This document shows positions 11,481-21,576 of a stretch of 64,000 bases of DNA, piece after piece. A program made the translations under genes and the position numbers. Source of the stretch: Limnohabitans sp. (GTDB lineage Bacteria > Pseudomonadota > Gammaproteobacteria > Burkholderiales > Burkholderiaceae_C); assembly GCF_017848645.1 (NCBI RefSeq), contig NZ_JAFEIF010000036.1, positions 1-64,000 of the forward strand. The letters are read 5' to 3'. The notes beneath the pieces were generated by a model that was not told the DNA's origin, searched no databases, and worked only from the letters and a program-made list of their open reading frames with translations. The stretch's first letter is position 1. Every line of letters begins with the position of its first letter.

Positions 11481-12605
11481 TCAGATGATGATCAGCTCGG
11501 CGCGCAGGCTACCGGTGCTTTTGAGGGCTTCGAGGATGGCGATCAGGGCCGAGGGTGTGGCCCCGACCTGGTTGACCGCGTCCACCACTTGGCGCAAGTC
11601 CACGCCGGGCTGGAACAGGAACATCGGGTTCTTGGGCTCGGTCACAGCAATTTCAGCGTTTTGCACCGGGGCTGTCTGGCCCAGACTCAGGGGGTTGGGC
11701 TGCGAGACTTCGTTGGTTGCGGCAATGGCCACCGAGATGGTGCCGTGCGCCACAGCGGCGGCGGTGACGCGCACGTTGCGGCTGATGACCACGGTGCCGG
11801 TGCGCGAGTTGACCACCACGCGGGCTGGCGGTTCGCCGGGCACCACATCCAGGTTTTCCACCAGGCTCATGAAGGCCACACGCTGGGACATATCGGCCGG
11901 CGCACGGATGGCCAGCGACATGCCGTCGAGGGCGCGGGCCGTGCCTTCGCCAAAACTTTTGTTCACGGCGTTCACAATGGCCGTGGTGGTGGTGAAGTCC
12001 GACTCACGCACGTTCATGACCACATGGTCAGAACTTTCAAACGGGGTTTCGACCATGCGCTCGACCGTCGCGCCGTTGGGCACGCGCGACGAGGTGGGCA
12101 CACCAATGCTGACCTTGGAGCCTGCGGCATTGGCGTCGATGCCGGTGGCCGTGAGGGCACCTTGGGCGATGCCATACACCTCGCCGTCCACGCCGCGCAG
12201 GCTGGTCAGCAGCAAGTTGCCGCCGCGCAGGTTGCTGGCCTTGCCGATGGCCGAGACGTTGATGTCAATTTTTTGACCGGGCTTGGCAAACGGGGGCAGC
12301 TCGGCGGTCACCATCACGGCGGCCACGTTTTTGATGTCGATCTTGCCGGCGCTGGCGCCTTGTTCGAAGTCCGACAGCGGACCGTCCAGGCTCACGCCCA
12401 TGCGGCTGAGCATGGACTTCATGCTTTGCGCGGTGAAGGACACATCGGCCCCGTCACCCGTGCCTTGCAAGCCCACCACCAGGCCGTAACCGATAAGTTG
12501 GTTGGTGCGGCCTGCCGCCACGCTGGCCAGGTCTTTGACGCGGTCAGCCCAGGCGCTGGCGTTCAGGCCGAGCAGCAAGACGAGGGCAAAGAGGGTGGAT
12601 TTCAT
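11481..12605 (-). CDS. flgI: Flagellar P-ring protein FlgI
   Basis: Forms the periplasmic P ring around the rod. A Sec signal peptide (MKSTLFALVLLLGLNASAWA, residues 1-20) is followed by the highly conserved start of the mature protein (DRVKDLASVAAGRTNQLIGY) and the downstream GLQGTGDG and TPSALIAILEALK motifs. The length of 374 residues is normal. FlgA, needed for its assembly, is encoded at 20331. It lies 34 bases upstream of flgJ and 25 bases downstream of flgH. Confidence 0.96.
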   Translation of the reverse strand: MKSTLFALVLLLGLNASAWADRVKDLASVAAGRTNQLIGYGLVVGLQGTGDGADVSFTAQSMKSMLSRMGVSLDGPLSDFEQGASAGKIDIKNVAAVMVTAELPPFAKPGQKIDINVSAIGKASNLRGGNLLLTSLRGVDGEVYGIAQGALTATGIDANAAGSKVSIGVPTSSRVPNGATVERMVETPFESSDHVVMNVRESDFTTTTAIVNAVNKSFGEGTARALDGMSLAIRAPADMSQRVAFMSLVENLDVVPGEPPARVVVNSRTGTVVISRNVRVTAAAVAHGTISVAIAATNEVSQPNPLSLGQTAPVQNAEIAVTEPKNPMFLFQPGVDLRQVVDAVNQVGATPSALIAILEALKSTGSLRAELIII

Positions 12606-18535: not shown

Positions 18536-18925
18536 TCAGTCTCCTCTCAAGGCTTTGCGCACGCTGCTCACGCGGCTTTCCAGAAAGTTCAGCGTGGCCT
18601 GGTAGTCGGCGGCGGCTTTACCGTACTGGGCTTGTTCCACGCTCATCTCGACGGTGTTGCCGTCAAAGGCGGTGTTGAACGGTGTGCGGTAACGCATGCC
18701 ATCGGCATCGATTCCCTGGCCCACGGCAAAGTGGCCCTGGCTGGTGGTGGTCATGGCGCTGCCTTGCTGTTGCGTCTCTTTCATGACGGCCTTGAAGTCG
18801 ATGTCCCGCGCTTTGTAGTTGGGCGTATCGGCGTTGGCGATGTTTTGCGCCAACACTTCAAGGCGGCGGCTTTTGACTTGCAAAGCTTGTTCATGCACGC
18901 CGAGTGCCTGGTTTAACAAATTCAT
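18536..18925 (-). CDS. flgB: Proximal rod protein FlgB
   Basis: First gene of the hook-basal-body operon; a proximal rod protein exported by the flagellar secretion system. The track start is 11 codons early; the ATG at 18925 with CAGGAG nine bases upstream gives MNLLNQALGVHEQALQVKSRR, the family start, and a 129-residue protein of normal size. The motif NIANADTPNYKARDIDFK is conserved. A full-consensus sigma-54 promoter lies about 90 bases upstream, implying activation by an enhancer-binding protein rather than a FlhDC-type sigma-70 promoter. Confidence 0.95.
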   Translation of the reverse strand: MNLLNQALGVHEQALQVKSRRLEVLAQNIANADTPNYKARDIDFKAVMKETQQQGSAMTTTSQGHFAVGQGIDADGMRYRTPFNTAFDGNTVEMSVEQAQYGKAAADYQATLNFLESRVSSVRKALRGD

Positions 18926-18986
18926 CTGGACTCCTGTGGTCGCGGGTTCGATGGTCAAGGTCCGTCAATTTTTTGACGAGGGGTGC

Positions 18987-19013
18987 TCAAGTTGAGCGGC
19001 TTGTGGTCGATAG
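18987..19013 (+). promoter_or_regulatory. Sigma-28-like promoter on the strand opposite flgB
   Basis: TCAAGTTG, 11-base spacer, GTCGATAG on the plus strand. The -35 matches the fliD and flgM boxes at seven of eight positions and the -10 is the same type as that of flgM (GTCGATTC). It points away from flgB, into the 3' end of the transglycosylase gene on the antisense strand, with flgA as the next gene in its own direction. It covers the predicted start region of the flgB sigma-54 promoter. Function is not established. Confidence 0.5.
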
Positions 19014-19014
19014 C

Positions 19015-19031
19015 TGCAAAAGCCGTGCCAA
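19015..19031 (-). promoter_or_regulatory. Sigma-54 promoter, flgB operon
   Basis: The minus strand reads TTGGCACGGCTTTTGCA, matching all 14 constrained positions of YTGGCACGrNNNTTGCW. Transcription would start near 19004, giving flgB a leader of about 80 bases. This is the strongest promoter match in the window. Confidence 0.85.
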
Positions 19032-19068
19032 GTCAATTTGTGGTCTTTGGAATTAGACCGATTTGCCC

Positions 19069-19130
19069 TTGCCGCTCAGAGCGGCAATTTGCCGTCAGCG
19101 GCAATGGCTGGCGGCCAGCCATTGCCGCTG
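19069..19130 (-). repeat. Two hairpins between transglycosylase gene and flgB
   Basis: A perfect 16-bp inverted repeat (CAGCGGCAATGGCTGG and its complement, 3-base loop, 19096-19130) begins one base beyond the transglycosylase stop. A second perfect 8-bp repeat (TTGCCGCT/AGCGGCAA, 19069-19087) follows. Both share the GCGGCAA word. No T run follows, so this is either a factor-assisted terminator, an mRNA-stabilising end, or a REP-like repeat. It lies about 40 bases before the flgB promoter and would separate the two units. Confidence 0.7.
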
Positions 19131-19131
19131 C

Positions 19132-20283
19132 TCAGCGCAGCGCGTTGGGCGCGGCGGTTGGCAAGGCCGCAGGAAGCGTGCTGGCCACTTCGTCGTACAG
19201 GCGGGTCATGCCCCCCTTGCCCAATGCGCCGAGCACAGGGGCGGCTGCGTTACGGGCGGCTTGGGGCAGCAGGGCATTGGTCAAGGTGTGCAGTCCCGCC
19301 AAAATGGAATTGCGCGTGATGGGGCCTCGTGTGTCTTGCCCCACATGCAGATAGCGCGCCTGTGGCCCGGCAATGGGCAAGGGTGCATCGGGCCGTGTTT
19401 CTTGCCGCGCTGCCGGGGTCAGCACCGTCAGGTACAAATCGTCCAGACCGATGGGGGGGCCTTTGACGCGCAGACCGGCTTGAGAGAAATAGCGGTCCAC
19501 CAGGTCCAGTTGCTGCAGCAAGCCCATGCCCAAAATCGCGCGCGGGTTGTCTTTGAAGCCCACTGCGGCGGCCCCCCGGTTGGGGCCATTGCAAAACTGG
19601 ATGATGCCGTGGCAGTTGCCGTTGCTGGCCTGGGGGTTCATGCCGCCGCTCTCCATCAGGCTCAGGCGGGCAAAGTCATCGGGCTGAAAGTTGTAGCGAT
19701 CGGCCAGGGCCAGGACCCGGTCCTTGACAGCGCTCACCTCGGCGGCAGGCACAAAACCCTTGGCCACGGCCCGCTCCAGTGTTTTGTCCAGCACCGGGTG
19801 CTGGCCGGTGCTGGCCGAGTGGCTGGCCCAGGCGGCCGGACGGCTGGCCAACGCATTGGCCGTCAGGGGGGGCGGACTGGCCAGTTGCGCCACCGATTGG
19901 GCGCTGCGCGGACTCAAGTCCAGGGGCCCGGGCGTCTCGCTGCGGGCAAGAGCGGGCATCTGCAGGCTGGAGAAATCGATTTTTTGCCCCGTCAGGATCA
20001 GGTTCGGGTTGTCAATCTGGTTGCGTGCTGCCACCTGGTGCGCCAGGCGCATGGCCTGCTGCTCGGTGATGGGCTGCTGGTTTTGCCGGTAATGGGCCTT
20101 GACCAGACCGATCAAGGTGTCACCTTCCTGCGCTTGGACCCTGCCACTGCGCGGGGCCACATCGGCCAGCATCTGGCCAAAGGCCCCCGCGCGGCCTGTC
20201 GCAGGCGCCAGCGCCCCGCTGCCCGAAGGGGCAGGGGGGCTCAGCGCAGGCAGGCTGGGCAAAGGGGTCAACAGGTTGCTCAT
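19132..20283 (-). CDS. LysM and lytic-transglycosylase protein, probable flagellar peptidoglycan hydrolase
   Basis: A 383-residue protein with a LysM-like segment (about residues 48-103, EGDTLIGLVKAHY ... NLILTGQKI) and a C-terminal soluble-lytic-transglycosylase-like fold (about 185-330). The likely catalytic glutamate is E211 in LSLMESGGMNPQASN, followed by the GIIQF loop equivalent to the GLMQ motif. No signal peptide is evident, so export could be through the flagellar apparatus, as for FlgJ. It lies on the flgB strand, between flgB and the divergent flgA, and FlgJ here lacks its muramidase domain, so this protein probably opens the peptidoglycan for the rod. A sigma-54-like site lies about 97 bases upstream, inside the flgA start region. 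Confidence 0.75.
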   Translation of the reverse strand: MSNLLTPLPSLPALSPPAPSGSGALAPATGRAGAFGQMLADVAPRSGRVQAQEGDTLIGLVKAHYRQNQQPITEQQAMRLAHQVAARNQIDNPNLILTGQKIDFSSLQMPALARSETPGPLDLSPRSAQSVAQLASPPPLTANALASRPAAWASHSASTGQHPVLDKTLERAVAKGFVPAAEVSAVKDRVLALADRYNFQPDDFARLSLMESGGMNPQASNGNCHGIIQFCNGPNRGAAAVGFKDNPRAILGMGLLQQLDLVDRYFSQAGLRVKGPPIGLDDLYLTVLTPAARQETRPDAPLPIAGPQARYLHVGQDTRGPITRNSILAGLHTLTNALLPQAARNAAAPVLGALGKGGMTRLYDEVASTLPAALPTAAPNALR

Positions 20284-20307: not shown

Positions 20308-20324
20308 CTGGTCTCGTTTTTGCT
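20308..20324 (+). promoter_or_regulatory. Possible sigma-54 promoter, flgA
   Basis: CTGGTCTCGTTTTTGCT has GG and GC correctly spaced and a good -12 (TTTGCT) but a poor -24 core, 10 of 14 positions. If real, transcription starts near 20335, so flgA would use the ATG at 20340 or later rather than 20331. Confidence 0.25.
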
Positions 20325-20330
20325 TGGTAG

Positions 20331-21149
20331 ATGGAAATCATGAACACTGTCAAAACTTTCACACCTATGAAACCCTCCATGCAAATGCTGTGCCGACTTC
20401 TGGACCAGGTCACGATCCGTGGCCTCTGGCTCGGGGCGGTGTTCTGTTTGAGCAGTTGGACGGCCGTGGCGGCCATACCGGTCATATCGGCCACGCCTGC
20501 AGCAGCCCTGCAAAAAGCGGTGGTCGACTGGGTGGCGCAAACCCAATCGGTGGCGGCCGAATCGGTCGTGCTCGCCCCCATGGACCCACGCCTTCAGGTC
20601 AAGGCCTGCGCCAGCCCTCTGGCCATGGATTTGCCCTTTGCCAGCCCCGATACCATCCGCGTGCGCTGCGCCCAACCGACCTGGCAGTTGTATGTGCGAG
20701 TGTCCGTTGCTGGGCGTGTGGCGGCACCGTCCGGCCAGGCCAAGGCCGAATCGGCACCGGTTGAGAAACGCCAGGTGCTGGTGGCGGCTGTCCCTTTGCA
20801 GCGCGGCATGAGCTTGACCGAGGCTCATGTTCGGCTGGCCCCTGTCGATACATCGGGTATGCCCGCCAATGTTCTTGAGCAAGTTTCCCAAATTCTGCAC
20901 AGTGAGGTGGTGCGCGATGTCCGCCCCGATACCCCTTTGCGCAGTCAGGACATTCGGCCTACCGTGCTCGTCAAAAGGGGCCAGATGGTGCTGATGTCGA
21001 TCGGGCAAGCCCAGGGGTTTCAGATCTCGGCCCGGGTAGAAGCACAGCAAGACGGTCGCTACGGCGAGCAAATCAAGCTCAAAAACCGCGATTCCGGGCG
21101 TATGCTCACGGGTTTGGTCAAAGGTCCCAACCAGGTGCAAGGCCTTTAA
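20331..21149 (+). CDS. flgA: P-ring assembly chaperone FlgA
   Basis: Periplasmic chaperone for P-ring (FlgI) assembly. A hydrophobic export signal is present (RGLWLGAVFCLSSWTAVAA) and the C-terminal SAF-like domain reads VAAVPLQRGMSLTEAHVRL through RDSGRMLTGLVKGPNQVQ, the standard FlgA ending. At 272 residues it is longer than enteric FlgA (219) because of an extended N-terminal domain. The start is uncertain: ATGs at 20331, 20340 and 20367 all precede the signal and none has a clear ribosome-binding site. The gene is divergent from the transglycosylase across 47 bases. Confidence 0.92.
   Translation: MEIMNTVKTFTPMKPSMQMLCRLLDQVTIRGLWLGAVFCLSSWTAVAAIPVISATPAAALQKAVVDWVAQTQSVAAESVVLAPMDPRLQVKACASPLAMDLPFASPDTIRVRCAQPTWQLYVRVSVAGRVAAPSGQAKAESAPVEKRQVLVAAVPLQRGMSLTEAHVRLAPVDTSGMPANVLEQVSQILHSEVVRDVRPDTPLRSQDIRPTVLVKRGQMVLMSIGQAQGFQISARVEAQQDGRYGEQIKLKNRDSGRMLTGLVKGPNQVQGL
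20380..20396 (-). promoter_or_regulatory. Sigma-54-like promoter, transglycosylase gene
   Basis: The minus strand reads TCGGCACAGCATTTGCA, 12 of 14 constrained sigma-54 positions with correct spacing. Predicted start near 20369, about 86 bases before the transglycosylase ATG, a leader length like that of flgB. It lies within the 5' coding region of flgA. Confidence 0.5.
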
Positions 21150-21192: not shown

Positions 21193-21219
21193 TCAAGTTC
21201 TAGAATCAGCTGTCGATTC
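21193..21219 (+). promoter_or_regulatory. Sigma-28 promoter, flgM
   Basis: TCAAGTTC, 11-base spacer, GTCGATTC, about 55 bases before the flgM ATG. The -35 is identical to that of flaG. FliA-driven flgM is the classical negative feedback on late flagellar genes. Confidence 0.8.
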
Positions 21220-21273: not shown

Positions 21274-21576
21274 ATGACTGATCCCATCTCTAGTTTTCGC
21301 CGGGTTGCCCAAATGGACTCGTCCAATCGCCAAGTGTCTGCGAGGGCCCAGGAGCGGGCGTCTGACGCTGCGCCCGAAGGCCTCGCCAAGGTCTTGGCAC
21401 CCCAGACCGACGAAGTCAAACTGAGCGCCGTTGCGCAAAAAGCCATGCAAGAGCCAGAATTCGACCGGGCCAAAGTCGAGGCCATCAAACTCGCCATTCA
21501 GCAGGGTCAATACCCTCTGGATACGCGCCGCATCGCCGAAAATTTCCTGGCCATTGAAAAAATGATCAAGGAATGA
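21274..21576 (+). CDS. flgM: Anti-sigma-28 factor FlgM
   Basis: Binds and inhibits sigma-28 (FliA) until exported after hook completion. The ATG at 21274 (MTDPISSFRRVAQ) with AAAGAGAA upstream gives 100 residues, the normal size; the track ORF runs 29 codons too far upstream, through the sigma-28 promoter. The C-terminal sigma-binding half (DEVKLSAVAQKAM ... VEAIKLAIQQGQYPLD) is conserved and the N-terminal half is Arg/Ala-rich and probably disordered. flgN follows after seven bases. Confidence 0.93.
   Translation: MTDPISSFRRVAQMDSSNRQVSARAQERASDAAPEGLAKVLAPQTDEVKLSAVAQKAMQEPEFDRAKVEAIKLAIQQGQYPLDTRRIAENFLAIEKMIKE

Follow-up and report, generated by a model that had tools for sequence, protein, structure and literature searches.

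Interleaved and oppositely directed sigma-54 and putative sigma-28 promoters at the flgB operon of Limnohabitans and its sister genera

The turning down of early hook genes after completion of the hook is only partly understood, and the answers known to us all act in trans, by way of FlgM, FleN or small RNAs. In the flgA/flgB region of Escherichia coli and Salmonella a single FlhDC site, working with sigma-70, serves both directions. The flgAMN and flgB operons of these organisms diverge, and flgM additionally has a class-3 promoter of its own (PMC4183435). E. coli also contains FliA sites away from gene starts or inside genes, many of which, including most of those inside genes, yield no detectable RNA, and among its intragenic or antisense sites one, at hypD, has a detected antisense RNA (PMC4183435). 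In the Listeria excludon, which involves mogR and flagellum export genes, an alternative sigma factor gives rise to a long mRNA that is antisense to flagellar genes (PMC7154746), and in Campylobacter the FliA-dependent small RNAs CJnc170/FlmR and CjNC1/CjNC4 restrain sigma-54 flagellar genes (PMC4626219; PMC11187230).

The locus considered here lies in a 64,000-nucleotide window, i.e. the whole stretch of Limnohabitans sp. DNA that was analyzed (contig NZ_JAFEIF010000036.1, positions 1 to 64,000). Members of this genus are common and abundant freshwater bacteria. On the contig flgN, flgM and flgA share one strand; the opposite strand carries a transglycosylase-like gene and after it flgBCDEFGHIJKL, fliD, flaG and the flagellin gene (Table 1). 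In the 45-bp segment 18987-19031 a sigma-54 site on the minus strand and a sigma-28-type site on the plus strand are interleaved and point in opposite directions. The first-pass annotation had described such overlapping, opposed motifs at flgB, and direct reading of the sequence bears out its motifs, coordinates and geometry. The sigma-54 site displays the invariant GG and GC (the latter at 19017/19016), precedes the start codon of flgB (18925) by approximately 105 bp and is kept in all close relatives. The genome encodes RpoN, FliA and FlgM, as well as several sigma-54 activators, one of them within a fli cluster; with both rpoN and an enhancer-binding activator present the site can be classed as a sigma-54 promoter. 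Its predicted transcription start is at about 19004, with a melted region of about 19015-19001. The opposed site has its -35 box (TCAAG) at 18987-18991 and its -10 box (GTCGATAG) at 19006-19013, separated by a spacer of 14 bp, and its predicted start at about 19020 falls between the -12 and -24 elements of the sigma-54 promoter and heads away from flgB. As the annotation had stated, this site covers the sigma-54 melting region, its entire -10 box lying in DNA that the sigma-54 polymerase would open, and therefore the two promoters would not be usable at once. It follows from this geometry that the FliA and sigma-54 holoenzymes cannot occupy the shared DNA together, entailing mutual exclusion when both are present. 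The gene order likewise agrees with the annotated direction, which is antisense to the putative transglycosylase gene and toward flgA.

Table 1. Coordinates of promoters, repeats and genes around flgB in the window
Feature	Coordinates	Strand	Sequence or basis
flgB, first gene of the rod/hook operon	18536..18925	minus	ORF and relatives
FleQ-box-like palindrome	18964..18977	none	GTCAATTTTTTGAC; about +27 to +40 of the sigma-54 transcript
Short inverted repeat around the -35 (CTTGA) box	18985..18997	none	GCTCAAGTTGAGC
Sigma-28 (FliA)-type site	18987..19013	plus	TCAAG-N14-GTCGATAG
Sigma-54 promoter of the flgB operon	19015..19030 (read 19030-19015)	minus	TGGCACGGCTTTTGCA, full match to TGGCAC-N5-TTGCW
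GCGGCAA/TTGCCGC inverted repeats	19065..19130	none	upstream of the sigma-54 site; like repeats in relatives
LysM/lytic-transglycosylase-like gene between flgA and flgB	19132..20283	minus	ORF, 383 aa
flgA sigma-54-type promoter	20309..20324	plus	TGGTCTCGTTTTTGCT; kept at flgA in relatives
flgA	20331..21149	plus	ChapFlgA, E 5e-27
flgM sigma-28 promoter	21193..21219	plus	TCAAGTTCTAGAATCAGCTGTCGATTC
flgM, anti-sigma-28 factor	21274..21576	plus	Pfam FlgM, E 8e-11

Sigma-28 (FliA) promoters are defined by a -35 box of the form TMAAG and a GYCGATAA-like -10 box at a fixed spacing, with transcription beginning about 7 nt beyond the -10 box. We scored candidate sites with a matrix derived from 53 distinct flgM and fliD sites of Limnohabitans and the sister genera, from which all flgB sites were excluded. 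With this matrix the flgB antisense site scores 19.7, like a true class-3 promoter, against a 99.9th percentile of 13.6 for Markov-shuffled sequences; none of 7100 shuffled upstream regions reached its score, and the best sense-strand score across 71 flgB loci was 6.5. Within the 22-kb flagellar part of the window four sites score at least 19 (those at flaG, fliD and flgM and the flgB antisense site), compared with one in 101 kb of non-flagellar sequence of this genome. The same sigma-28 form is found upstream of the expected class-3 genes flgM, flaG, fliD and fliS, and both boxes and the spacing of the flgB antisense site equal those of the independent flgM promoter. A chance match can be rejected on the basis of the score relative to shuffles, the conservation of the site and its rarity elsewhere. 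By its boxes, its 14-bp spacing and its recurrence in 69 of 71 loci the site belongs with the sigma-28 promoters; recognition of the plus-strand element by sigma-28 is, as far as sequence can tell, well supported, and FliA probably binds and initiates there, although the many E. coli FliA sites without detectable RNA (PMC4183435) counsel caution.

The 71 loci comprise the flgB upstream regions of Limnohabitans and four sister genera, in which the scores of the antisense site range from 9.9 to 23.1. Poor conservation of the sigma-28 motif would have counted against the annotated arrangement; instead, both motifs are kept across the genus and its sister genera. The two loci without the site (L217 and L240) indicate that it is not indispensable. 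After near-copies were collapsed at 85% identity the two main groups retained 16 and 10 sequences, in which the -35 box carries 2.0 and 1.8 bits and the -10 box 1.45 and 1.64 bits, as against approximately 0.8 bits in the spacer and flanks. One clade shows TAAAG, the form typical of E. coli, in place of TCAAG at the -35 box. Beyond these genera the site is mostly absent, both from 20 further flgB loci of the same family and from 14 loci of other families of the order, and other orders and gammaproteobacteria mostly lack it as well. Three gammaproteobacterial flgB loci (L313, L333 and L339) have the full sigma-28 consensus on the same strand. In one of these, from an uncultured gammaproteobacterium (L339), TAAAG-N14-GCCGATAA lies exactly across the flgB sigma-54 site in the opposite direction, in the 230 bases that precede the match at 2501-2884, with flgAMN directly divergent; this is apparently an independent case of the opposed overlap. 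Separately, Limnohabitans FlgB is nearer to gammaproteobacterial FlgB proteins (Thioalkalivibrio, Methylobacter and Stutzerimonas, with up to about 50% identity) than to those of most of its own family (about 40%), and these identities suggest a horizontal origin of the flagellar cluster.

The position of the sigma-28 unit relative to the sigma-54 site is variable. Of 66 loci, 41 have the two sites 17 bp apart and 25 have them 14 bp apart, while the internal spacer of the sigma-28 unit is always 14 bp. In a sister genus the unit lies 60 and 70 bp downstream of the sigma-54 site (L216 and L212, respectively; L278 is similar), and in a long-branched outlier (L218) it lies upstream of it. All these arrangements share the direction of the unit, away from flgB. 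As the unit moves relative to the sigma-54 site it cannot be part of the sigma-54 consensus, and we reject the idea that it is an extension thereof. Furthermore, the sigma-28 motif adjoining the TTGC element recurs at flgB only, and none of the remaining sigma-54 sites of the examined flagellar contigs has an overlapping sigma-28 site, so that a general trait of sigma-54 flagellar promoters is rejected as well. To judge from these alignments the sigma-28 element is independent, and its overlap with the sigma-54 site is common, not obligatory.

Based on these observations we consider it reasonably probable that what lies on the plus strand is a true FliA promoter kept by selection, which is intertwined with the sigma-54 promoter of flgB and whose late transcript would run toward the transglycosylase-like gene and flgAMN. 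In the window the site faces the opposite-strand 1.1-kb transglycosylase-like gene, and beyond it flgA, flgM and flgN. The intervening gene shows weak similarity to one lytic transglycosylase structure (E 3.5e-4) and no match in Pfam. It is absent from the locus in about 10 Limnohabitans genomes, where the site faces flgA directly at a distance of about 250 nt; in 9 of 10 of these, matches elsewhere in the genome are confined to its N-terminal LysM region (31-40% identity). The tree suggests that presence and absence of this gene changed several times within the genus.

These directly divergent genomes raise the possibility that the site is an ordinary class-3 promoter driving flgA-flgM-flgN with a long leader, its overlap with the flgB promoter being incidental to a compact intergenic region which the transglycosylase-like gene entered or left. 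The gammaproteobacterial loci with the full consensus on the same strand upstream of flgB are in line with this, in particular the uncultured representative in which the site spans the sigma-54 promoter and flgAMN diverges. However, flgA has its own conserved sigma-54 promoter, which in the second group takes the canonical form TGGCATCTTTATTGCA, and flgM has its own sigma-28 promoter, which is kept in almost every genome where flgM is within reach and contributed to the training of the matrix. As both genes are thus provided for, their expression alone does not call for the antisense site, and a requirement for it in flgA or flgM expression is disfavored. Moreover, the site persists despite the intervening 1.1-kb gene in the majority of genomes and in every sister genus for which sufficient sequence was available. 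We therefore regard an exclusive role as an flgAMN promoter as unlikely. With respect to the flgA promoter itself, it occupies the short stretch that separates flgA from the transglycosylase-like gene, and its predicted start suggests that the true flgA start codon (ATG) may be downstream of 20331. A further sigma-28-like site, with a score of 16.4, is seen inside flgA (20825-20851) on the flgM-facing strand.

A different alternative denies the sigma-28 nature of the site, and reads ATCGAC-N14-CTTGAG as a sense-strand or leader element, made up either of half-sites for an activator or of a hairpin in the RNA whose conserved loop is CTTGA. Most lineages do have a stem around CTTGA: the arms of this repeat differ between lineages and are often still paired, and over 19 distinct loci the mean fold z-score is -1.7, with 12 of the 19 below -1. 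The repeat may fold into a hairpin where the flgB leader begins and so add its own constraint to the -35 box, and part of the conservation of that box could be owed to it. Also on the side of this alternative, a FleQ-like box adjoins the site. The dyad agrees with the published FleQ consensus, GTCAAT-N2-ATTGAC (PMC10723142), as may be compared with the FleQ box proposed for Pseudomonas putida, GTCAaAAAAtTGAC (PMC6120874), and it is kept in close relatives, with the form TGTCGG..CCGGCA in the second group. The identical palindrome is present once more at 12264-12277, within the flg operon (between 11.4 and 12.7 kb). Against the leader element, transcription from the sigma-54 promoter is predicted to start downstream of the ATCGAC half in the overlapping lineages, so that the whole unit cannot be part of the RNA there, and a leader-RNA element alone is accordingly disfavored. 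Nor does the sigma-28 unit track the change of the dyad from GTCAA to GTCGG, and its identity in boxes and spacing with the independent flgM promoter also speaks for sigma-28; a non-sigma-28 element is hence very unlikely.

Least likely of all, by a little, is that FliA gives rise to a short RNA, antisense or otherwise small, which ends at the GCGGCAA/TTGCCGC hairpins and works in trans. For this there are precedents in Campylobacter (PMC4626219; PMC11187230), and a strong hairpin is formed by a perfect 17-nt inverted repeat with a 1-nt loop (19096-19130) directly after the transglycosylase-like gene ends. It is opposed by the lack of a T-tract behind this hairpin on the plus strand, by the poor conservation of the region beyond the promoter except for the repeats, and by the fact that the plus strand from 19020 to flgA has no intrinsic terminator above chance, whereas such an RNA would be expected to end in one. 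The GCGGCAA/TTGCCGC repeats are possible activator sites or a terminator of the upstream gene.

Returning to the interleaved FliA promoter, we envisage that early in assembly the sigma-54 polymerase and its activator would act at the flgB promoter. Upon completion of the hook FlgM would be exported and FliA freed, and the FliA polymerase would then take the same 45 bp and keep the sigma-54 polymerase out. The late transcript initiated in this way would be antisense to the transglycosylase-like gene and perhaps continue into flgAMN, in keeping with a plus strand that has no intrinsic terminator above chance from 19020 to flgA; we rate such read-through as just short of an even prospect. The geometry fits a transcript that is possibly excludon-like. 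A physiologically relevant down-switch of flgB is a more tentative proposal, and the upstream position of the unit in the long-branched outlier, which would not occlude flgB, counts against it. Taken together, these steps would amount to an assembly checkpoint in cis, in which freed FliA, through both occlusion and transcription of the antisense strand, shuts off the rod/hook genes as well as the transglycosylase-like gene and feeds flgAMN. We regard this full scheme as somewhat doubtful; if true, one site would turn the early class off while the late class comes on.

Each part of the arrangement is of a known kind, namely sigma-54, sigma-28 and antisense promoters and divergent flgA/flgB regions. 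For their combination, a conserved sigma-28 promoter opposed across the sigma-54 promoter of the hook operon, we found no description in the open-licence literature, a scope that leaves subscription papers and preprints outside. A conserved late-sigma promoter set in cis against a middle-class promoter would, if true, constitute a minimal feedback switch in a genus abundant in freshwater. Were the site only a promoter of flgAMN, it would still represent interleaved sigma-54 and sigma-28 divergent promoters maintained over several genera. The likeness to E. coli and Salmonella lies in the divergent flgAMN and flgBCDEFGHIJ operons and in the class-3 promoter of flgM itself; unlike in those systems, flgB of Limnohabitans uses sigma-54, the opposed site is of the sigma-28 type, and an extra gene usually lies between the operons. 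The E. coli intragenic FliA sites are similarly antisense to genes, but they lie inside genes and are mostly without known effect, whereas the Limnohabitans site is intergenic, lies on a sigma-54 promoter and is kept across genera. With the Listeria excludon the locus would share a long transcript, from an alternative sigma factor, that is both antisense to flagellar genes and mRNA of the opposite operon; however, the Listeria system is a SigB stress switch, while that of Limnohabitans is a proposed FliA assembly checkpoint, whose predicted start moreover overlaps the opposing promoter. As with the Campylobacter small RNAs, late sigma-28 output would feed back on middle sigma-54 genes, but those RNAs reach other loci in trans through base pairing, whereas in Limnohabitans the effect would be exerted in cis at the flgB promoter.
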